DNA from: Solibacillus sp. FSL R5-0449
GTDB taxonomy: Bacteria > Bacillota > Bacilli > Bacillales_A > Planococcaceae
Direction: 5' to 3'
Assembly: GCF_037975215.1 (NCBI RefSeq)
Contig: NZ_CP150239.1
Coordinates: 1,030,001 to 1,094,000 of the forward strand
DNA length: 64,000 bases
The notes under the pieces are model-generated. The model was not told the DNA's origin. It did not search any database and saw nothing but the letters and a program-made list of their open reading frames with translations. The first letter of the stretch is position 1; every line of letters starts with the position of its first letter. Of the stretch, positions 10,916-50,748 are shown piece after piece. The translations under genes and the position numbers were made by a program.

Positions 10916-13285
10916 ATGAGCAAAGTAAGAGTTCATGAATATGCGAAAAAGGTAAATAAAACAAGTAAGGAAGTTATTGAGGTGCTTGCAAAACACAATC
11001 TGCCAGTGAAAAATCACATGGCGGTAATTGACGAGCAGGCAGTCTCAAAACTAAATTCTGTCTTTAAGCAAGCAGTGGAACCAACGAAAGATTCTCCTGC
11101 AAAGACACCTGCCAAAGCTGTAAATGTTACACCAAAACGCGGTGAACAAGGGCAGAAGAAAGTGCAGCAAGGTCAAAAGCAGGATCGTCCACAATCTGCT
11201 TCTAATAACCAACAACCGAACAAAGCTTCAAACGCCCAAGGGCAACCAAAATCGCAACAAGGCGAAAAAATAAGAAATGAAAAAGGTAACCAAAATCGAA
11301 ATATGACACAAAATAACAATAATAACCGCAAAAGCGGCACAACTCAAAACACTAGTAATAATAAAGGCGGTAACACGCCAAACAGAGGCGGAAATACGCC
11401 GAACAAGGGTGGCAACACTCAAAACAAAGGCGGCTATCAACAACGTAGAAAACCAGGTATCAATGGTGGCAAACGTCGTACGCACCGCCCGGCACCACAA
11501 CCAATGGTGCAAAAAGAATTACCGGAAAAAATTACTTTCTATGAAAGTTTATCCGTTGCAGAACTTGCAAAAAAATTACACCGTGAGCCATCGGAAATTA
11601 TTAAAAAATTATTCATGCTTGGCGTAATGGCAACAATTAACCAAGAGCTTGATAAGGATGCAATTGAGTTAATCTGTGCAGACTACGGGGTAGAAGTAGA
11701 AGAAGAAATCCGTATCGACAAAACAGATTTAGATACGTACTTCGATGACACTATCGTGGAAGTTGACGAAAACGCATTAGAAGAGCGCCCACCGGTTGTA
11801 ACAATCATGGGACACGTTGACCACGGTAAAACTTCATTGCTTGACTCAATCCGTAAAACGAAAGTTACAGCGGGTGAAGCAGGCGGTATTACTCAGCATA
11901 TCGGTGCATACCAAGTAGAAGTAAACGGAAAGAAAATTTCATTCCTTGATACTCCTGGTCACGCGGCATTCACAACAATGCGTGCGCGTGGTGCATCAAT
12001 TACAGATATCGCAATTATCGTAGTAGCAGCAGATGACGGTGTAATGCCTCAAACAGTTGAAGCAATCAACCACGCAAAAGCTGCAGAAGTACCAATTATC
12101 GTAGCAATCAACAAAATGGATAAACCAACTGCCAACCCGGACCGTGTACAACAAGAATTAACTGAGCACGGATTAGTTCCTGAAGCATGGGGTGGAGATA
12201 CAATCTTCGTACCAATTTCAGCGCTAAAAGGTGAAGGTATTGACCAGCTTCTAGAAATGATTTTATTAGTTTCTGAAGTAGGCGAATTAAAAGCGAACCC
12301 GACTCGTTCAGCGATCGGTACAGTAATTGAAGCACAGCTTGATAAAGGCCGTGGTGCAGTTGCAACACTTTTAGTTCAAGATGGTACATTACGTGTTGGT
12401 GATCCGATCGTAGTCGGTCATGCATATGGTCGTGTACGTGCAATGGTTAACGATCTTGGCCGTCGTATTAAAACAGCTGGTCCTTCTATGCCGGTTGAGA
12501 TTACAGGCTTAAACGAAGTACCACAAGCGGGTGACCGTTTCGTAGTATTCGAAGACGAAAAAACAGCTCGTCAAGTTGGTGAATCTCGTTCAATGACAGC
12601 TATCCAAGCTTCACGTTCTGAAAAACAACGTGTAACACTTGATAACTTATTCGAACAAATGAGCCAAGGCGAAATGAAAGAATTAAACTTAATCGTAAAA
12701 GCAGACGTACAAGGTACTGTGGAAGCAATGGCTTCTTCATTAATGAAAATTGATGTTGAAGGCGTTAACGTTAAAATCATCCACACTGGTGCGGGTGCAA
12801 TTACAGAATCGGATATCTCTCTTGCTGCTGCATCAAATGCAATCGTTATCGGATTCAACGTTCGTCCAGATACAAATGCAAAACGTGCTGCAGATGAAGA
12901 AGGCGTAGATATTCGTCTACACCGTATCATCTACAAAGTAATCGAAGAAATCGAACACGCGATGAAAGGGATGCTTGATCCAGAGTTCGAAGAGAAAATC
13001 GTTGGTCAAGCGGAAGTTCGTCAAACAATTAAAGTATCTAAAGTGGGTACGATCGCAGGTTCATACGTTATCGAAGGTAAAATCGTTCGCGATGCCGGCG
13101 TACGTGTAATCCGTGAAAACGTTGTTGTGTTCGAAGGTGAACTTGATTCACTAAAACGCTTCAAAGATGATGCAAAAGAAGTTGCAAAAGGGTATGAGTG
13201 TGGTATTACGATCAAAAACTACAACGACATTAAAGAAGGCGACATTATCGAAGCCTTCGTAATGGAAGAAATCGTTCGTAAATAA
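10916..13285 (+). CDS. infB: Translation initiation factor IF-2
   Basis: A 789-aa GTPase that brings initiator tRNA to the 30S subunit. The N terminus has an IF2N domain (about 1-50), then a low-complexity N/Q/G/K stretch (about 60-190) with repeated GGNTPN-type units, then a second IF2N domain ([21 protein letters not shown]). G motifs: GHVDHGKTS (G1), DTPGHAAF (G3), NKMDK (G4) and SALKGEG (G5). C-terminal domains bind fMet-tRNA. A ribosome site (GGGGTGAG) precedes 10916. The stop overlaps ylxP. Confidence 0.97.
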
Positions 13286-14071: not shown

Positions 14072-14290
14072 TAGAGTGACGCGAAGCGAAGGGGGGCGAG
14101 TGTAGCTGACGGCTAACGCCTTTCGCTACAAGCAGGCTTCCTGCGGGAAAAGCACGAGGGAGAGACTACAGGCTCGAGCCGTGCCCGCGGAATATTAGAA
14201 CGAATGCTAAAACCGTTACGTCGTGTAACAACGCATTCGTGACCAACGTCCTGTTGGCCTCCCGTAGCGAAGCAGAACGGATTGTATGAA
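14072..14290. repeat. Dispersed GC-rich intergenic repeat, family A (copy 1)
   Basis: This occupies most of the 403-bp gap between rbfA and truB and is much richer in GC than its surroundings. It contains GAGACTACAGGCTC followed by GCCCGCGG, then a module with CGAATGC/GCATTCG, GTTAC/GTAAC and CCAAC/GTTGG hairpins ending in GGCCTC. The module at 14199-14262 recurs at 19302-19365. No open frame. It resembles the noncoding palindromic repeats common in Bacillaceae and Planococcaceae chromosomes. Confidence 0.7.
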
Positions 14291-19164: not shown

Positions 19165-19385
19165 AGGGGAGGTATGCGTAATGGAGAGGCCGACTTCTAG
19201 GGGATTAAGCGTGCGCGGAAAATCTGGTTGCTCCTGCGGTTACTCGTCTCAAAGCTTTATTCAAAGCTTTGGAGCTACGCCCCCGGAAATAATGGAACGA
19301 ATGCTAAGAGCGTCACATCGTGTGACAACGCATTCGTGACCAACATCCTGTTGGCCTCTCGGAATGAAGCATACCGGACTATATA
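19165..19385. repeat. Dispersed GC-rich intergenic repeat, family A (copy 2)
   Basis: This fills the 416-bp gap between pnp and the M16 peptidase gene. Bases 19302-19365 match the module at 14199-14262 closely (GAACGAATGCTAA, CGTGT, ACAACGCATTCGTGACCAAC, TCCTGTTGGCCTC). The CGAATGC/GCATTCG and CCAAC/GTTGG pairings are kept although several bases differ. The left part differs and holds its own CAAAGCTTT-containing palindrome. No coding potential. Confidence 0.7.
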
Positions 19386-35596: not shown

Positions 35597-36645
35597 TGTC
35601 AAATCGAGTTGTGAATCTGCTCGTTCCACTCATCTCGGTAGTTTTAGGATTACTCGTTGGCGGGATCATCATGGTTGTCAGCGGCTATGATGCAATTGAT
35701 GGGTATACAGCACTATGGAATGGTATTTTCGGAGATTCTTATTCTATCGGTAATACAATCCGTCAAATTACACCGTATATTTTAGCAGGTCTAGCAGTAG
35801 CATTTGCCTTCCGTACTGGATTATTCAACATCGGTGTTGAAGGTCAGCTATTAATGGGGTGGCTTGCAGCGGCATATGTCGGTTATGCAATTGAAGGATT
35901 ACCACGTATGATCCACTTGCCATTAGCATTACTAGCGGCTGCGGCAGCGGGTGCGTTCTGGGCATTTATCGTCGGTTTCCTGAAAGCAAGACTTCAAGTA
36001 CACGAAGTAATTGCTTCGATCATGTTAAACTACACAGCATTATATTTAACAAATGCTGCGATTAAATCTTTATCAGACGGCGGATTCAAAACGCCGACGG
36101 TATTAGAATCAGCTACATTACGTAATCAGTGGTTACGCGAAATTACGGACAATTCAAGTCTTCACTTAGGGATTATCGTGGCACTGATCATGGTAGTTGT
36201 TATGTGGTTTATTTTAGAAAAAACAACGCGCGGTTATGAGTTGAAAGCAGTAGGGTTCAACAAAAACGCTGCTGAATATGCAGGTATGAATGTAAACCGC
36301 AACATCATTTTAGCAATGACAATTTCCGGTGTATTCGCCGGTCTGGGCGGTGCGATGGAAGCATTGGGAACATACCAGAACGCTTCGATTAAAGCAGCAG
36401 CTTCAGGTATCGGATTTGACGGGATCGCCGTAGCATTACTAGGTGCGAACAATCCGATCGGTGTATTCTTCGGAGCTTCATTATTCGGTTCCCTAAAATA
36501 CGGTTCATTAAACATGCCGAACGAAGCAGGTATTCCGGAAGAAATCGTATCAATCATCATTGCAGTAATTATTTTATTCGTAGCTTCAGGCTATATTTTA
36601 CGTGTTGGTTTACAGAAATTCGGAAAGAAAAAGGAGGGCAAGTAA
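35596..36645 (+). CDS. Nucleoside ABC importer permease 1
   Basis: A 349-aa permease of the BPD_transp_2 family (NupP/YufP-like) with about nine to ten membrane spans. FRTGLFNIGVEGQLLMG and the GANNPIGVFFGASLFGSLKYG region are typical of inner-membrane proteins of nucleoside importers. The ATG overlaps the ATPase stop (TAATG). It is followed immediately by the second permease. Together they form the channel for the BMP lipoprotein's ligand. Confidence 0.9.
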   Translation: MSNRVVNLLVPLISVVLGLLVGGIIMVVSGYDAIDGYTALWNGIFGDSYSIGNTIRQITPYILAGLAVAFAFRTGLFNIGVEGQLLMGWLAAAYVGYAIEGLPRMIHLPLALLAAAAAGAFWAFIVGFLKARLQVHEVIASIMLNYTALYLTNAAIKSLSDGGFKTPTVLESATLRNQWLREITDNSSLHLGIIVALIMVVVMWFILEKTTRGYELKAVGFNKNAAEYAGMNVNRNIILAMTISGVFAGLGGAMEALGTYQNASIKAAASGIGFDGIAVALLGANNPIGVFFGASLFGSLKYGSLNMPNEAGIPEEIVSIIIAVIILFVASGYILRVGLQKFGKKKEGK

Positions 36646-36646
36646 C

Positions 36647-37606
36647 ATGAGCTTTTTAGAAGTGTTATACTTTATCGTCCCTTCTGCCCTTTTATACGCA
36701 ACACCGCTTATTTTAACAGGTATCGGGGCTCTATTCTCGGAGCGTGCAGGGGTAATCGGTCTTGGTGTTGAAGGGTTAATGATTGTCGGTGCATTTACAG
36801 GTATTTATATCAACTTGGAATACTATGCTGACTTTGGGAAAAACGTCATTTGGCTGGCTTTATTGGCAGCGCTATTAGCAGGGGCAATTTTCTCGTTAAT
36901 TATTGCCGTTGCAGCCGTAACATTCCGCGCAGACCAAACTGTTACAGGTGTAGCAGCAAACATGCTTGCTGCAGCGATTACAGTATTCCTGGTTAAATTA
37001 ATTTACGGTAAAGGTCAAACAGACATGGTTTCTGCACCATTACAACGTTTTGAAATACCATTTTTATCAGATATACCGTTCTTGGGACCGCTGCTGTTCC
37101 AAAATGTATACTCCACAACGATCATCGCATTGGTTGTTGCGGTAGGCGCATGGTTTGTTCTTTATAAAATGCCATTCGGTCTACGTATTCGCTCTGTCGG
37201 AGAACATCCAATGGCAGCAGATACAATGGGAATTAACGTAGCGAAAATGCGTTATATCGGTGTAATGATTTCCGGTGCATTAGCAGGTGTCGGTGGTGCT
37301 TCATTGGCTATGACATCATCTGGTGATTTCTCTGGCTCTACAGTAGCCGGACAAGGATTCATCGCCATCGCCGCAATGATCTTCGGTAAATGGCATCCAA
37401 TCGGAACATTAGGTGCCGCACTATTCTTCGGTTTAGCGCAAACATTAAGTATCGGTGGCGGGAACATCCCGTACATTCAAGATATCCCACCGGTAATCCT
37501 GCAAGTACTACCATATGTCCTAACAATCCTGGCATTAGCAGGCTTCGTAGGAAAAGCAGTAGCACCAAAAGCATCAGGCGTTCCTTATATCAAAGGAAAA
37601 CGCTAA
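36647..37606 (+). CDS. Nucleoside ABC importer permease 2
   Basis: A 319-aa permease of the same family (NupQ/YufQ-like), with about nine spans; ALFSERAGVIGLGVEGLMIVGAF and FIAIAAMIFGKWHPIGT are conserved. An in-frame ATG exists at 36602 inside the previous gene, but AAGGAGGGCAAGTAAC before 36647 marks the true start, one base after the upstream stop. Last gene of the operon; a terminator follows within 10 bp. Confidence 0.9.
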   Translation: MSFLEVLYFIVPSALLYATPLILTGIGALFSERAGVIGLGVEGLMIVGAFTGIYINLEYYADFGKNVIWLALLAALLAGAIFSLIIAVAAVTFRADQTVTGVAANMLAAAITVFLVKLIYGKGQTDMVSAPLQRFEIPFLSDIPFLGPLLFQNVYSTTIIALVVAVGAWFVLYKMPFGLRIRSVGEHPMAADTMGINVAKMRYIGVMISGALAGVGGASLAMTSSGDFSGSTVAGQGFIAIAAMIFGKWHPIGTLGAALFFGLAQTLSIGGGNIPYIQDIPPVILQVLPYVLTILALAGFVGKAVAPKASGVPYIKGKR

Positions 37607-37612
37607 TTATAG

Positions 37613-37652
37613 GACCGTCTGTACAAAGTGGATTTGTGCAGGCGGTTTTTTG
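37613..37652 (+). terminator. Intrinsic terminator after the nucleoside importer operon
   Basis: GACCGTCTGTACAAA and TTTGTGCAGGCGGT pair with G-U wobbles, followed by TTTTTT. The 37.7-kb array begins about 30 bp later. Confidence 0.88.
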
Positions 37653-37680: not shown

Positions 37681-38296
37681 TTATTAGCCGAGTTGTAGGG
37701 GAAAGTAGAACATCTTGGAGGTAAAGTAGAAATTTTTCAGGCTAAAGTGGAAACTATTCATGTAAAAGTAGAACGAATCGCCGGTAAAGTAGAAAGCGTG
37801 GAAATTATTAGCCAAGTTACGGGTGAAAGTAGAACCTTTTGAAGAGAAAGTAGAAAGTTTTCAGGCTAAAGTGGAAACTATTTATGTAAAAGTAGAACGA
37901 TTCGCCGGTAAAGTAAAAAGCGTGGAAATTATTAGCCAAGTTACGGGTGAAAGTAGAACCTTTTGAAGAGAAAGTAGAAAGTTCTCCGGCTAATGTAGAA
38001 ACTATTTAGGGAAAAGTAGAATGAAACGCCGGTAAAGTAGAAACACAAAATTTATTAGCCAAGTTGAGAGAGAAAGTAGAATTTATTTAAGAGAAGGTAG
38101 AAAGTATTGCGGCTAAAGTGGAAACTATTTAGGGTAAAGTAGAACAAATCTTCAGGTAAGTAGAAAGTGTTGAACTTATTAGCTTATTAGCTGGAGGAAA
38201 GTAGAAACTTCAAAGTTTAAGGTAGAAACTATTCAAGGAAAAGTAGAATAGGTAGACCGTAAAGTAGAAAACCCGTTTTTATTAACCAATTTGTGT
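37681..38296 (+). repeat. 21-bp phased word array, word AAAGTAGAA, with 124-bp higher-order units
   Basis: Word starts: 37702, 37723, 37744, 37765, 37786; 37826, 37847, 37868, 37889, 37910; 37950, 37971, 37992, 38013, 38034; 38073, 38094, 38115, 38136, 38157; 38198, 38219, 38240, 38261. Steps within groups are exactly 21. Groups are separated by 39-41 bp holding TTATTAGC (37681, 37805, 37929, 38052, 38176, 38279), giving units of 124, 124, 123, 124 and 103 bp, the last short by exactly one 21-bp step. Spacers of 12 bp recur between groups in the same order. Confidence 0.92.
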
Positions 38297-38394: not shown

Positions 38395-38596
38395 GAGTGG
38401 AGGGGCCGACTCATAGGGATTAAACGTGCCTCGAAATGAAACTTAGTTAGAATACGAAATTTAATACTAAAAGAGAAGTGCTTGGAATGGAGGGGAGGCG
38501 ACTCCAGCGGGAATAGCGTGACGCCTGAGACTACAGGCTCAGGCCACGCCCGCGGAAAGCGTCCGACCCGGAATGGAAAGCACTGGACTATATTAA
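38395..38596. repeat. Dispersed GC-rich intergenic repeat, family A relatives
   Basis: Between the 37.7-kb array and ymfF lies a fragment (GGAGTGGAGGGGCCGACTC at about 38395) and then a fuller element at 38478-38585. The latter has arms AGTGCTTGGAATGGA and GGAATGGAAAGCACT and an inner GCCTGAG/CTCAGGC hairpin followed by CCACGCCCGCGG. Parts (GAGACTACAGGCTC, GCCCGCGGAA) match the element at 14.1 kb. At 38631-38655 a further GTGCTG/CAGCAC hairpin occurs. No coding potential. Confidence 0.65.
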
Positions 38597-38853: not shown

Positions 38854-40116
38854 TTGTTTTTAACAACAGAAATTGCGAAAGGTGTTTCGCTTCATATACG
38901 ACAAACCGCCCAATTCAAAACGGTTAACTTTTCGATCAAATGGAGAGCACCATTAAATGAAGAAACAGCGGCACAGCGTACAGTATTATCGAATGTCCTG
39001 CAGCACAGCAACGAAAAATTTCCAACATCGGCAAGTTACCGCAGCTATTTAGATGACCTGTTCGGCACAGTATTGTATTTTGACACAGCAAAGCGCGGTC
39101 AGGAACATACCGTACTCATGAATGTCGAAACAGTAAATGACCAATATTTATCGCATGGCAATGTTCTAAATGAAGTAATCGACCTGATCCAGGAAGCGAT
39201 CTTCAAACCGAACTACGAAAACGGTGTATTTAAAGAATCAATTGTCAACCGTGAAAAAGAAATGGTCATCCAACGAATCCAATCAATTTTCGATGACAAA
39301 TCACGCTACGCACAAAAACGTTTAACAGAAATTATCCGTCCAAACAGCGCAGCATCATTTTCTGCAAACGGTAATATTGAAGCCGTAAAAGCAATTACAC
39401 CACAATCATTGACAAAAACATATGAAGATATGCTAGCAAATGATGTCATTGATATTTATGTTGTCGGTGATATTAATGTGGAAGAAATGACGCAAAAGTT
39501 GAAAGCAGCATTCCAATTTGCTGACCGCAATGCGCTGCCAAAAACACAAGAAGACAAAACGCCTGCAAACATTGAGCCATATACAAAAGAAACGCAGGAA
39601 ATGAAACAAGGGAAACTGCATATCGGCTACTCGACACCTGTTCGATTTGGCGATAAAGATTTCCCGATCATGCAAATTTTCAACGGGATCTTTGGCGGTT
39701 ATGCCCATTCAAAATTATTTATGAATGTCCGTGAAAAAGAAAGTTTAGCTTATTATGCATCAAGCTCTTACTCTTCACAATACGGATTACTGTTCGTCGT
39801 GTCTGGTATCGAGCCGGCAAATGAAGAAAAGGCACGCAAATTAATTGCCGAACAGTTAAAAGTAATGCAAAATGGTGAAATTACCGATTTGGAATTGGCG
39901 CAAACGAAGGCGATGCTCATTAACCAGTTAAAAGAAGCATTGGATTCACCTCGTGGCCAAATTGAAATTTTTGACCAATACAAAGTATTAGACGAACCGT
40001 TTACTATGGATACGTGGACTGCACGCTGGCAATCTGTGTCAAAAGAAGATGTGCAAAAAGTGGCACAGGATATTAAATTAGAAGCAACGTATTTCTTATG
40101 CGGTAAGGGGGAGTAA
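38854..40116 (+). CDS. ymfF: M16-like protein YmfF, associated with EF-P modification
   Basis: A 420-aa M16-fold protein. The zinc motif HxxEH is absent (the equivalent region reads VLQHSNEKFPTSASY), so it is probably the inactive partner of a heterodimer with YmfH, whose motif is intact. Annotation pipelines link YmfF/YmfH to the EF-P 5-aminopentanol modification because of the neighbouring ymfI. A C-terminal NVREKESLAYYASSSYSS segment is typical of M16. The TTG at 38854 follows AGGAGGAG. The next gene starts 3 bp after its stop. Confidence 0.88.
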   Translation: MFLTTEIAKGVSLHIRQTAQFKTVNFSIKWRAPLNEETAAQRTVLSNVLQHSNEKFPTSASYRSYLDDLFGTVLYFDTAKRGQEHTVLMNVETVNDQYLSHGNVLNEVIDLIQEAIFKPNYENGVFKESIVNREKEMVIQRIQSIFDDKSRYAQKRLTEIIRPNSAASFSANGNIEAVKAITPQSLTKTYEDMLANDVIDIYVVGDINVEEMTQKLKAAFQFADRNALPKTQEDKTPANIEPYTKETQEMKQGKLHIGYSTPVRFGDKDFPIMQIFNGIFGGYAHSKLFMNVREKESLAYYASSSYSSQYGLLFVVSGIEPANEEKARKLIAEQLKVMQNGEITDLELAQTKAMLINQLKEALDSPRGQIEIFDQYKVLDEPFTMDTWTARWQSVSKEDVQKVAQDIKLEATYFLCGKGE

Positions 40117-47029: not shown

Positions 47030-48100
47030 TTGAGCGATCGTAAAGCAGCATTAGATATGGCGTTAAAACAAATAGAAAAACAATTCGGTAAAGGTTCTGT
47101 CATGAAGTTAGGTGAGAACTCGAATAACAAAATCGATACAACTTCATCAGGCTCTATCGCAATTGATGCAGCATTAGGTATAGGCGGATATCCGCGCGGA
47201 CGTATTGTAGAAGTTTACGGACCGGAATCATCTGGTAAAACAACGGTTACATTACATGCCATCGCAGAAGTACAAGCTAACGGCGGTACAGCAGCATTTA
47301 TCGATGCTGAGCACGCACTTGACCCAGTATATGCGCAAAAATTAGGCGTTAACATTGACGAATTATTACTATCTCAGCCGGATACAGGTGAACAAGCACT
47401 TGAAATCGCGGAAGCTTTAGTACGTTCTGGCGCGATCGATATTATTGTTATCGACTCTGTAGCAGCATTAGTACCAAAAGCAGAGATCGAAGGCGAAATG
47501 GGTGACTCGCACATGGGTCTTCAAGCGCGTTTAATGTCTCAGGCATTACGTAAATTATCAGGTGTTATCAACAAATCGAATACGCTTGCTATTTTCATCA
47601 ACCAAGTACGTGAAAAAATCGGTGTTATGTTCGGTAACCCAGAAACTACTACAGGTGGACGTGCCCTTAAATTCTACTCTTCTATCCGTTTAGAAGTACG
47701 TCGCGGTGAAGCGATTAAGCAAGGTACTGAAATTATCGGTAACAAAACGAAAATTAAAGTCGTGAAAAACAAAGTAGCACCACCATTCCGTACAGCGGAA
47801 GTGGACATTATGTACGGTGAAGGGATTTCTAAAGAAGGCGAAATCGTCGACATCGGTGCAGAACTGGACATCATCCAAAAGAGCGGTTCTTGGTATTCTT
47901 ACAACAGCGAACGAATCGGCCAAGGTCGTGAAAATGTAAAACAATTCTTCAAAGAAAACCCAGCGATCAAAGAAGAAGTAACAGAAAAAATCCGTCAACA
48001 CTTCGGTATCGGTGAACTAGGCTACACAATCGGCGCCAATGATACAACAGACGAAGAAGAACTGGACGAACTAGAATTATTCGAAGACGAAAAAGAATAA
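47030..48100 (+). CDS. recA: Recombinase A
   Basis: A 356-aa ATP-dependent strand-exchange protein and LexA coprotease. Walker A is GPESSGKT at residues 64-71, Walker B region [13 protein letters not shown], and the DNA-binding loop [16 protein letters not shown]. The acidic tail ([18 protein letters not shown]) is typical. Starts with TTG at 47030 after TTAAGGAGGAAATAG, the only start in register. Own promoter and SOS box upstream, terminator downstream. Confidence 0.97.
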
Positions 48101-48146: not shown

Positions 48147-48188
48147 GTGGGTGGGGGTGTGGGCTTGCCTGGGTGGTGTGGGTGATTT

Positions 48189-48850
48189 TATTAGAAGAAA
48201 TATGGAGGTTATTAGAAGATCTCTGGGTGATATTAGAAGGTTTGAGGGTTTTATTAGAAAATTGTGCTGATGGGGCAGATTTTGATGGGGTTAGCTTGAG
48301 AATAGCGGTGGAAAAGTGGTCACGGGAACTTTTATTAGAAGAAATTCCGCTTTATTAGAAAATCTCGGTCCGATATTAGAAGAACGGGAAGGGATATTAG
48401 ACAATCGGGAGCACTTATTAGAAGAAGTGCGGGATATATTAGAAGTTCGAAAGTTTATTAGAACAAATAAAAATATATTAGAACATTTTAGGATTTATTA
48501 GAACTTTGAGGGGGCTATACTAGCCGGCAATTTTATTAGAAGAAATATGAGGGTTATTAGAAGAACTCAGGGTGATATTAGAAGGTTTGGAGCTTTTATT
48601 AGAAGATTGGACTGGATTGACCGATTTTGTTTGGAGTTAGTTTGAGAAAAGTGGTGAAAAAGTCCAGCAGGAACTTTTATTAGAAGAAATTTCGCTTTAT
48701 TAGAAAATCTCGGTCCGATATTAGAAGAACGGGAAGGGATATTAGACAATCGGGAGCACTTATTAGAAGAAGTGCGAGATATATTAGAAGTACGAAAGTT
48801 TATTAGAACAAATAAAAATATATTAGAACTTTTTAAGATTTATTAGAACT
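48189..48850 (+). repeat. 21-bp phased word array, word TATTAGAA, with 345-bp tandem duplication
   Basis: Word starts: 48189, 48210, 48231, 48252; 48333, 48353, 48374, 48395, 48416, 48437, 48456, 48476, 48496; then the same set 345 bp later, 48534 to 48841. Most steps are 21 bp, some 19-20. The right part of each copy is nearly identical; the left part has diverged. This explains most of the 1.1-kb gap between recA and rny. Short open frames across it (48143-48501) read heptad-like ILExxRE units but have no ribosome site. From 48851 to 49048 is plain AT-rich DNA. Confidence 0.9.
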
Positions 48851-49194: not shown

Positions 49195-50748
49195 ATGGAA
49201 ATGATACTCCCTGCTTTGCTAGGATTCGCTGTCGGTGTCGCTGTTATCTATTTCTACATGAAAAACGTGAATGAATCAAAAGTGACTGGTGCAAAGCATG
49301 TTGCCGAGCAAATCGTGGAAGACGCGAAACGTGAAGCAGATGCACTTAAAAAGGAAGCACTGCTTGAAGCAAAGGATGAAACTCACAAATTTCGAACTGA
49401 AGCGGAAAACGACATTCGTGACCGTCGTGGAGAGCTTCAGAAACAAGAGAACCGTTTATTGCAAAGAGAAGAAAACCTTGACCGCAAAGATGAAACTCTG
49501 AACAAAAGAGAGATAAGCTTAGAGCGTAAGGAAGAAGCTCTAGCTAGCAGACAACAGCATATTGAACAGATGGAAAGCAAAGTAGAACAACTTGTTGCAA
49601 GTCAAAAAACTGAGCTTGAGCGCATTGCAGCTCTTACGCGCGAAGAAGCGAAAGAGGTTATCTTGAAGGAAGTTGAAAACGAACTTTCTACAGATATTGC
49701 TGTAATGACGAAAGAATCGGAATTGCGTGCAAAAGAAGAATCAGACAAAAAGGCTCGAGAAATTTTATCACTTGCATTACAACGCTTTGCAGCTGACCAT
49801 GTTGCAGAAACAACAGTGTCCGTTGTAAATCTGCCGAATGATGAGATGAAAGGCCGTATTATTGGTCGTGAAGGCCGTAACATCCGTACATTAGAAACAC
49901 TTACAGGTATCGATTTAATTATTGATGATACACCTGAAGCGGTTATTTTATCCGGCTTTGATCCGATCCGCCGTGAAACAGCTCGTCTTGCATTGGAAAA
50001 ACTAGTTCAAGATGGTCGTATTCACCCAGCACGTATCGAAGAAATGGTTGAAAAATCTCGCCGTGAAGTGGATGAGCAAATCCGCGAAACAGGTGAGCAA
50101 ACAACATTCGAAGTAGGTATCCATAACCTGCATCCGGATTTAATGAAAATTCTTGGTCGTATGAAATACCGTACAAGCTATGGTCAAAACGTATTGAAAC
50201 ACTCAATCGAAGTAGCCCATTTAGCAGGATTGCTTGCTGCTGAACTAGGCGAAGATGTGACATTAGCGCGTCGTGCAGGTTTACTGCATGATATCGGTAA
50301 AGCAATTGACCATGAAGTTGAAGGAAGCCACGTTGAAATCGGTGTGGAACTGGCAACGAAGTATAAAGAACACCCAGTTGTTATTAACTCAATTGCATCC
50401 CACCATGGTGACACAGAAGCAACTTCAGTTATCGCTGTACTTGTAGCAGCAGCCGATGCATTATCAGCAGCTCGTCCAGGTGCCCGCAGTGAAACATTAG
50501 AAAACTATATTCGCCGCCTTGAAAAGCTGGAAGAAATCTCTGAAAGCTATGACGGCGTTGAAAAATCATTTGCGATCCAAGCAGGTCGTGAAGTACGTAT
50601 CATTGTACAACCTGAAAAAATCGATGATCTTGCATCACATCGTTTAGCGCGAGATATCCGCAAACGTATTGAAGAAGAACTCGATTACCCGGGTCACATC
50701 AAAGTGACAGTTATTCGTGAAACACGTTCAGTGGAGTATGCGAAATAA
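49195..50748 (+). CDS. rny: Ribonuclease Y
   Basis: A 517-aa membrane-anchored endoribonuclease that starts mRNA decay. N-terminal membrane span ([18 protein letters not shown]), a long charged coiled coil (about 25-205), a KH domain ([20 protein letters not shown]), and an HD domain with [10 protein letters not shown] and SHHGD. Length 517 is near the Bacillus protein (520). ATG at 49195 follows AGGAGGGAAACGATATT. Usually followed directly by ymdB; here a glycan cassette lies between. Confidence 0.96.

Follow-up and report, generated by a model that had tools for sequence, protein, structure and literature searches.

Tandem repeats of constant length (20–21 or 52 nt) and species-specific sequence have been described in Bacillus and beyond (Subirana & Messeguer 2021; PMC8161180). 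As set out there, these repeats carry short conserved signals, are mostly non-coding and are enigmatic in function, the proposals being either a polymerising DNA protein with a nucleoid role or small RNAs, and the equivalence of the unit to two helix turns was pointed out (PMC8161180). The genomes of that work are labelled Bacillus, and its main text carries no mention of Solibacillus, of Lysinibacillus or of a name in Planococc- (PMC8161180). The array reported here lies in a window of 64,000 nucleotides (positions 1,030,001–1,094,000 within a 3.58-Mb single-contig genome) and fits the published class on every feature tested against the sections of that paper used here, namely a 20–21-nt step, a lineage-specific sequence, a short signal, several families per genome and a non-coding location. 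The sequence-only reading of the window had known of no named class with this design; such a class, of constant-length 20–21-nt repeats, had in fact already been described (PMC8161180). Within the literature searched, part of it in excerpt, the composite element, the helically quantised gap, the rate evidence from orthologous sites and the avoidance of divergent regions appear to be new. A published but enigmatic repeat class thereby gains evolutionary evidence of function, with words and spacing under selection while spacers drift.

Plasmid iterons are direct repeats of about 20–22 bp in helical phase; the arrays considered here differ in occupying dozens of chromosomal sites, with no replication gene at the two loci in the window. 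CRISPR loci combine repeats of about 23–50 bp with unique spacers of about 25–40 bp, and a CRISPR array was ruled out by the 9-bp word, the 12-bp spacer and the many loci. REP/BIME elements bind gyrase. They resemble the arrays as dispersed extragenic repeats, and a role in supercoiling has been hypothesised for them, but BIMEs, in the accounts used here, alternate the orientation of their REP units, whereas the 51 arrays delimited below have 645 words on the array strand against 9 on the opposite one. Strong gyrase sites and the Topo-Seq motif have a phased composition favouring wrapping, and a phased composition is present in the gaps of this genome and G156 but absent from those of CGCTCGTA arrays; as far as the motif is set out in the sections used, it includes no fixed repeated word, in contrast to the tens of near-identical words found here (PMC12393610). 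The RemA-bound repeats of B. subtilis are likewise direct repeats, lying under a ring protein believed to wrap DNA, yet the sites, as described in the parts of the report used, are 7-bp AT-rich sequences at 3-bp intervals, modestly conserved and promoter-upstream, whereas the arrays have a strong 9-bp word at steps of mainly 19–21 bp (PMC8481266).

Architecture of the array and its surroundings

The array at 37681–38287 contains 24 words of type A, AAAGTAGAA or one-base variants, arranged in five groups (5+5+5+5+4) with a 21-bp step inside each group and superunits of 124, 124, 123, 124 and 103 bp, a layout that had been read earlier and was confirmed on re-reading the sequence (Table 1). Each group is headed, as had also been noted, by TTATTAGC (at 37681, 37805, 37929, 38052 and 38176, with a degenerate sixth copy, TTATTAACC, at 38279); the distance from the last word of a group to the next header is 18–19 bp, and the header is doubled at the start of group 5. 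Because the headers share the 21-bp phase of the A words, they look like a sixth, B-like word and not like a separate mark. Tandem Repeats Finder reported a period of 124 bp with 4.1 copies and 84% matches. The spaced word pair (≤3 mismatches) had 20 matches in the window, 19 of them inside the array, compared with a mean of 0.15 and a largest value of 1 per window in dinucleotide shuffles (n=100), and an Rfam scan of the window returned no family at the array. The permease gene upstream is presumably NupQ by name.

Table 1. Coordinates of the arrays, their parts and the neighbouring genes in the window.
Feature	Position	Strand	Details
BPD_transp_2 ABC permease gene, upstream of array	36602..37606	+	Pfam PF02653
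Intrinsic-terminator-like hairpin and T-run, 3′ of transporter gene, ~30 bp before array	37613..37651	+	By eye
Superunit 1	37681..37804	+	TTATTAGCC header word, then five AAAGTAGAA-type words
Superunit 2	37805..37928	+	
Superunit 3	37929..38051	+	
Superunit 4	38052..38175	+	
Superunit 5	38176..38278	+	Doubled header, four words; then degenerate header TTATTAACC, 38279-38287
M16-type peptidase gene, downstream of array	38854..40116	+	Pfam PF05193
recA, upstream of type B array	47030..48100	+	Pfam PF00154
Type B array between recA and rny, element 1	48188..48503	+	Word T/ATATTAGAA; steps 21,21,21,81,20,21,21,21,21,19,20,20
Interior of 81-bp gap between word blocks, element 1	48260..48331	+	In the set with helically quantised length and 10.5–11-bp A/T rhythm
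Type B array, tandem element 2	48533..48848	+	Identical steps
rny (RNase Y), downstream of type B array	49195..50748	+	Pfam PF12072

Just past the array, at 38479–38582, lies a GC-rich dispersed repeat with blastn copies of 88–97% identity in four other places in the stretches of the sister genome G156; it had no Rfam match at the gathering score.

Arrays of two word families across the genome

Array words in this genome belong to two related families, AAAGTAGAA (type A) and (T/A)TATTAGAA (type B), and exact spaced pairs of both words occur 268 times in the genome, with 0 occurrences of the reversed control pattern. A census of exact 6-mers outside ORFs, in 20 sampled 20-kb stretches across the genome, placed recurrence at lag 21 above all other lags (34.8 per 10,000 sites), the opposite of the first outcome named as refuting the sequence-only reading; lag 42 followed (22.1), then lags 20 (14.0) and 39 (11.1), most lags giving 3–10 per 10,000 sites. 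The array at 37681–38287 is one of at least 51 delimited in the genome and not a single curiosity. The delimited set comes from three sources (the 20 samples, the window and 40 stretches centred on arrays) and is biased to low coordinates; a chance match led the delimiting script to start the window's first array 56 bp too early, and genes around the arrays were called by an ORF rule with no gene finder.

The distances between words in the 51 arrays were 21 bp in 300 cases, 20 bp in 80 and 19 bp in 44. The two families comprised 109 and 180 distinct units, in which, after preselection at ≤1 mismatch, word positions held 1.0–2.0 bits of information and 21 of 24 spacer positions less than 0.5 bits; one word accompanies unrelated spacers in dozens of loci.

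As to gene context, 24 of the 51 arrays have co-directional neighbours on the strand of the array and 11 have co-directional neighbours on the opposite strand, a weak bias in orientation (P=0.04), while 15 lie between convergent genes and only one between divergent genes, compared with 20 divergent cases among 93 sampled intergenic stretches of ≥200 bp (Fisher P=0.001). The arrays avoid divergent promoter regions and are therefore found behind at least one gene. A hairpin rule detected a terminator-like structure before 30 of the 39 arrays whose upstream gene is co-oriented, at a median of 33.5 bp to the first word; the rule also passed 48 of 80 array-free gene 3′ ends and 45 of 94 5′ sides, and a position specifically behind terminators was dropped on that account.

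A composite element built on the type B word

Type B words form a stereotyped element in which a gap of ~81 bp separates two blocks of words. Its plan runs 21,21,21,~81,21,21,21 (or 42),21,19,20,20 for a total of ~317 bp, with a short form of ~173 bp, and its 19/20-step signature (≤2 mismatches) retrieved 52 elements genome-wide, 31 forward and 21 reverse (control 0). Two elements stand in tandem between recA and rny, where the sister genome G156 has one. One of the 52 falls within 2.0–2.5 Mb, as against 10–12 per 0.5 Mb in 0–1.5 Mb, and this sparse zone does not coincide with the skew sign change (1.62–1.80 Mb); counted by eye, the elements had no clear replication-strand preference relative to the skew sign change.

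With 21 bp equal to seven codons, the arrays might be read as the relic of coding sequence for coiled-coil heptads, and the units are indeed readable as KVExxxx or LLExxxx in one frame. The spacers contain in-frame stops, however (20 of 436 codons in type A, 18 of 720 in type B), no ORF of ≥60 aa occurs in the array at 37681–38287, and the 124-bp superunits and the 19/20-bp steps disrupt the frame. Coding heptads were rejected on the in-frame stops and frame breaks, and such an origin is extremely improbable.

Words and spacing are conserved at orthologous sites

Divergence at the 51 sites was determined against 800 kb of the sister genome G156; 19 sites had both flanks aligned, the remainder presumably lying mostly outside the compared stretches, and word places were kept if either species had the word at ≤1 mismatch. 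At one of the 19, site 500553, G156 is without an array and the intergenic region measures 172 bp, compared with 503 bp in this genome. Type B words differed at 97 of 1,314 positions (0.074) and type B spacers at 455 of 1,592 (0.286), while type A words differed at 70 of 522 (0.134) and type A spacers at 282 of 600 (0.470), the last value, above the neutral yardstick, suggesting that some units are misaligned. The yardstick, fourfold-degenerate sites of the same genome pair, stood at 0.251 (3,454 of 13,765), flanking intergenic DNA at 0.207 (394 of 1,907), and neutral decay simulated under the keep rule predicted a word divergence of 0.225; words diverged less than fourfold sites with P=4 × 10−58 (type B) and P=1 × 10−10 (type A) when sites are treated as independent.

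The array at 37681–38287 failed the flank rule and was compared separately from the 19 sites. Against G156 (25 word places) its words diverged by 0.070 (15 of 214) and its spacers by 0.299 (81 of 271); against G154 (26 word places) the values were 0.042 (9 of 212) and 0.087 (24 of 275).

Furthermore, 131 of 142 steps of 18–22 bp between shared words were identical in this genome and G156, nine being off by 1–2 bp and two by whole units, compared with ~62% unchanged steps predicted from the flank indel rate (P=6 × 10−17). Double steps were kept in 9 of 11 cases; among the eight long gaps three were kept, and the change was 1 bp in four and 21 bp in one. Selection acts on the word and its spacing and leaves the letters of the spacer nearly free, as is evident from the divergence of words and spacers and the conservation of steps at orthologous sites; selection on spacing had been suggested in the sequence-only reading from the conserved word, the free spacers and the rigid phase.

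These rates bear on functionless minisatellite slippage, to which one might ascribe the superunits that recur inside loci and the copy number that varies by species, as at the recA site. At the same sites, however, the divergence of words is well under the neutral level while that of spacers equals or slightly exceeds it, the spacing is held, and a single word stands amid unrelated spacers in dozens of loci; simple slippage was rejected on the difference in rate between words and spacers, which makes it very improbable as an account of the arrays. A dispersing MITE-like element, its words serving as recognition sites for its own spread with no host role, would suit the stereotyped plan with its 52 copies, the patchy occurrence across species and the absence of the 500553 element from G156. 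It is rather unlikely nonetheless, as words and spacing are constrained in orthologous, stationary copies, and terminal repeats, target duplications and a companion gene were not seen in an inspection by eye.

Length and composition of the type B gap

Gaps were counted only with two phased words on each side, stray distances (for example 50, 73, 79 and 85) being left out; with tandem copies counted once (three rows dropped) and a 58-bp gap excluded, 32 gaps were obtained, which are not independent, as they include orthologous pairs and several gaps per array. Before the tandem copies were merged, the lengths in this genome were 59 (1), 71 (4), 72 (3), 81 (14) and 82 bp (3), and those in G156 were 60, 81 (2), 82 (4), 83, 91 and 92 bp, the 91/92-bp gaps of G156 holding a degenerate word at 21. 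The 32 lengths form clusters of 59–60, 71–72, 81–83 and 91–92 bp. Gap length thus clusters at whole helical turns (~60, 71, 81 and 92 bp), which extends to the gap the helical phasing first proposed from the 21-bp step. For the nine gaps off 81–83 bp the mean distance to a 10.5-bp step is 0.56 bp, compared with 2.62 bp at random; the best overall period is 10.6, its peak being broad owing to the predominance of 81–82-bp gaps. Two intervals outside the counted set fit the ladder poorly: the 58-bp gap, on a Solibacillus contig, and a 44-bp interval in an array of G157. Words, spacing and gap length are all constrained.

The gap sequence itself has drifted (mean pairwise identity 0.36 in 13 copies, against 0.26 from composition), the residual identity reflecting a common ancestry of the copies; the six off-length loci in this genome had mutual identities of ≤0.52 and were no closer to one another than to the 81/82-bp gaps (best 0.45–0.60). 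In 24 word-aligned gaps of 81–83 bp from this genome and G156, WW dinucleotides recurred with a period of 10.5–11 (power 0.69–0.89), compared with a 99th percentile of 0.13–0.15 under the null, and 0 of 1,000 random shifts reached an equally high value. The rhythm was absent from the flanks of 46 arrays and was not found in nine gaps of CGCTCGTA arrays from another genus, and it is shown for this genome and G156 only. A number of peak columns contain both A and T but almost no G or C, which points to selection on bendability, shared ancestry explaining part of the pattern. In seven orthologous gap pairs, W to S changes affected 18 of 146 peak sites versus 24 of 80 trough sites, and their rarity at peaks gives modest support for selection on the gap rhythm. 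Single-turn shifts (~31 bp) between adjacent words were not seen, and for this reason the step may reflect protein size or unit duplication and not helix face alone.

A function as transcript, either as a non-coding RNA or as an RNA sponge, would have a parallel in the 52-nt repeats of the sister class, for which transcription in B. coagulans is stated in the parts of the reports used (PMC8161180, PMC8625621). The 14 arrays folded here (drawn from arrays of 160–360 bp) gave no mean folding signal, with mean z-scores of 0.10 and −0.48 on the two strands and single arrays scattering from −3.2 to 2.8; moreover, arrays occur in either orientation, and the helical quantisation of a drifted gap is without an RNA reason. 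A role as RNA is accordingly quite improbable.

The geometry recurs in relatives with other words

A scan of named genomes for TATTAGAA triples returned 38 stretches, of which 30 belong to Solibacillus or Ureibacillus; the other 8, with triples at 21 bp, come from unrelated MAGs assigned to Bacteroidota, Clostridia, Cyanobacteria and Chlamydiae (L035, L038-L040, L043, L055, L060, L067) and may be coding leucine-rich heptads. Among 16 genus genomes, AKTAGAA pairs numbered 129–313 in six (this genome included), 16–62 in five and 0–5 in five, and two genomes of another genus, G243 and G233, had 117 and 50. The orthologous transporter site could be read in 13 of the 16 genus genomes, this one counted: the array is kept in G156 and G154, almost nothing of it is present in G153 and G159, and the site carries CGTGCGA words in G150 and CGCTCGTA words in G164.

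The alternative words were each counted as pairs. Of the 261 genomes scanned in the order, 24 had CGCTCGTA pairs, at ≤27 per genome (reversed control in 2 genomes); CGTGCGA pairs occurred in 3 of the 16 genomes of the genus (control in 1), ACGTGCGA in 3 of 398 genomes of the class sample, and AATAGACA arrays in one of the 16 genus genomes (G157, two exact pairs). The first AATAGACA array of G157, with steps of 21,21,50,21,21,21,21,21,19,21, is arranged like the TATTAGAA element but built on a different word, and has a 50-bp gap that fits the 10.5-bp ladder; the second (21,21,21,44,19,21,21) has the 44-bp interval that misses it. In 29 CGCTCGTA arrays from five genomes the word distances were 21 bp in 204 cases and 20 bp in 97, with nine gaps of 77–81 bp and others of 83, 88 and 91 bp. 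Some CGCTCGTA arrays alternate 21 and 20 bp, a mean of ~20.5 bp and near two turns; long runs of 21,20,21,20 word steps averaging ~20.5 bp were seen in L255 and L244 (G168), and the alternation could also have arisen as a 41-bp unit was duplicated. Four congeners, sampled word-blind at 100 kb each, yielded few array words. Relatives keep the 20–21-bp geometry but use unrelated words (CGCTCGTA, ACGTGCGA, AATAGACA).

The change of word bears on the possibility that the arrays are gyrase loading sites, where phasing would favour chiral wrapping on gyrase behind transcription units, as at strong gyrase sites. Such a function would agree with the scarcity of arrays in divergent promoter regions (1 of 51) and with the 10.5–11-bp phased A/T within the gap, and a preprint, in the portions used, describes an E. 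coli motif of ~130 bp with periodic G/C arms and ascribes the strength of the Mu site to phased anisotropic bending (PMC12393610). A conserved enzyme, however, would not be expected to use an invariant lineage-specific 9-bp word, and gyrase alone, being a conserved protein, would not explain the change of word between species; the CGCTCGTA gaps are without the rhythm, and the hairpin rule gives the arrays no special link to terminators. Gyrase loading is therefore unlikely.

A proposed DNA-bending or DNA-wrapping protein

We favour the reading of the arrays as phased binding sites for a DNA-bending or DNA-wrapping protein (probability about 0.6), because word, distance and phase are constrained while RNA folding and coding are unsupported. 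A protein-binding or nucleoid role, as the sequence-only reading had put forward, is also the best reading of the array at 37681–38287 as far as its sequence can tell. The protein, the wrapping and the role are what we infer. The arrays would be direct sites on duplex DNA for one putative protein or its polymer, which would touch the same helix face every two turns and bend or wrap the DNA; the 9-bp word would provide the base-specific contact and the 12-bp spacer would set the distance only. In the type B element, the ~81-bp gap between the word blocks would come to about one superhelical turn for DNA wrapped around a core, and the gap would then require the right helical phase, and perhaps bendability, with no fixed letters. 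The resulting nucleoprotein body behind genes might take up supercoils generated by transcription, serve as an insulator between neighbours or have a part in organising the nucleoid. By likeness, ring proteins of the LrpC or RemA type (PMC8481266) and gyrase (PMC12393610) are candidates for the protein.

Word and reader may change together across lineages, as is suggested by lineages that switch the word and keep the geometry; if the reader does change between species while the geometry stays, these arrays would amount to a natural experiment on how a chromosome-architecture protein and its sites evolve together. A more specific version is tentative and on balance doubtful, namely a DNA-wrapping signal made of lineage-specific 8-9-bp words two turns apart and of gaps of one superhelical turn selected for phase and bendability only, with a fast-evolving architectural protein building nucleosome-like bodies behind genes. 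If true, it would explain why the enigmatic repeats measure mainly 20–21 nt, equal to two turns, and 52 nt, equal to five.

Other repeats and RNAs in the window

A 21-bp repeat at 11363–11433 lies in apparent coding sequence, which we take to be perhaps that of a translation initiation factor, and by eye seems unconnected with the arrays. The window further contains two copies of Bacillaceae-1 RNA (Rfam RF01690), at 14191–14257 and 19288–19354, with scores of 70.5 and 77.5 bits.
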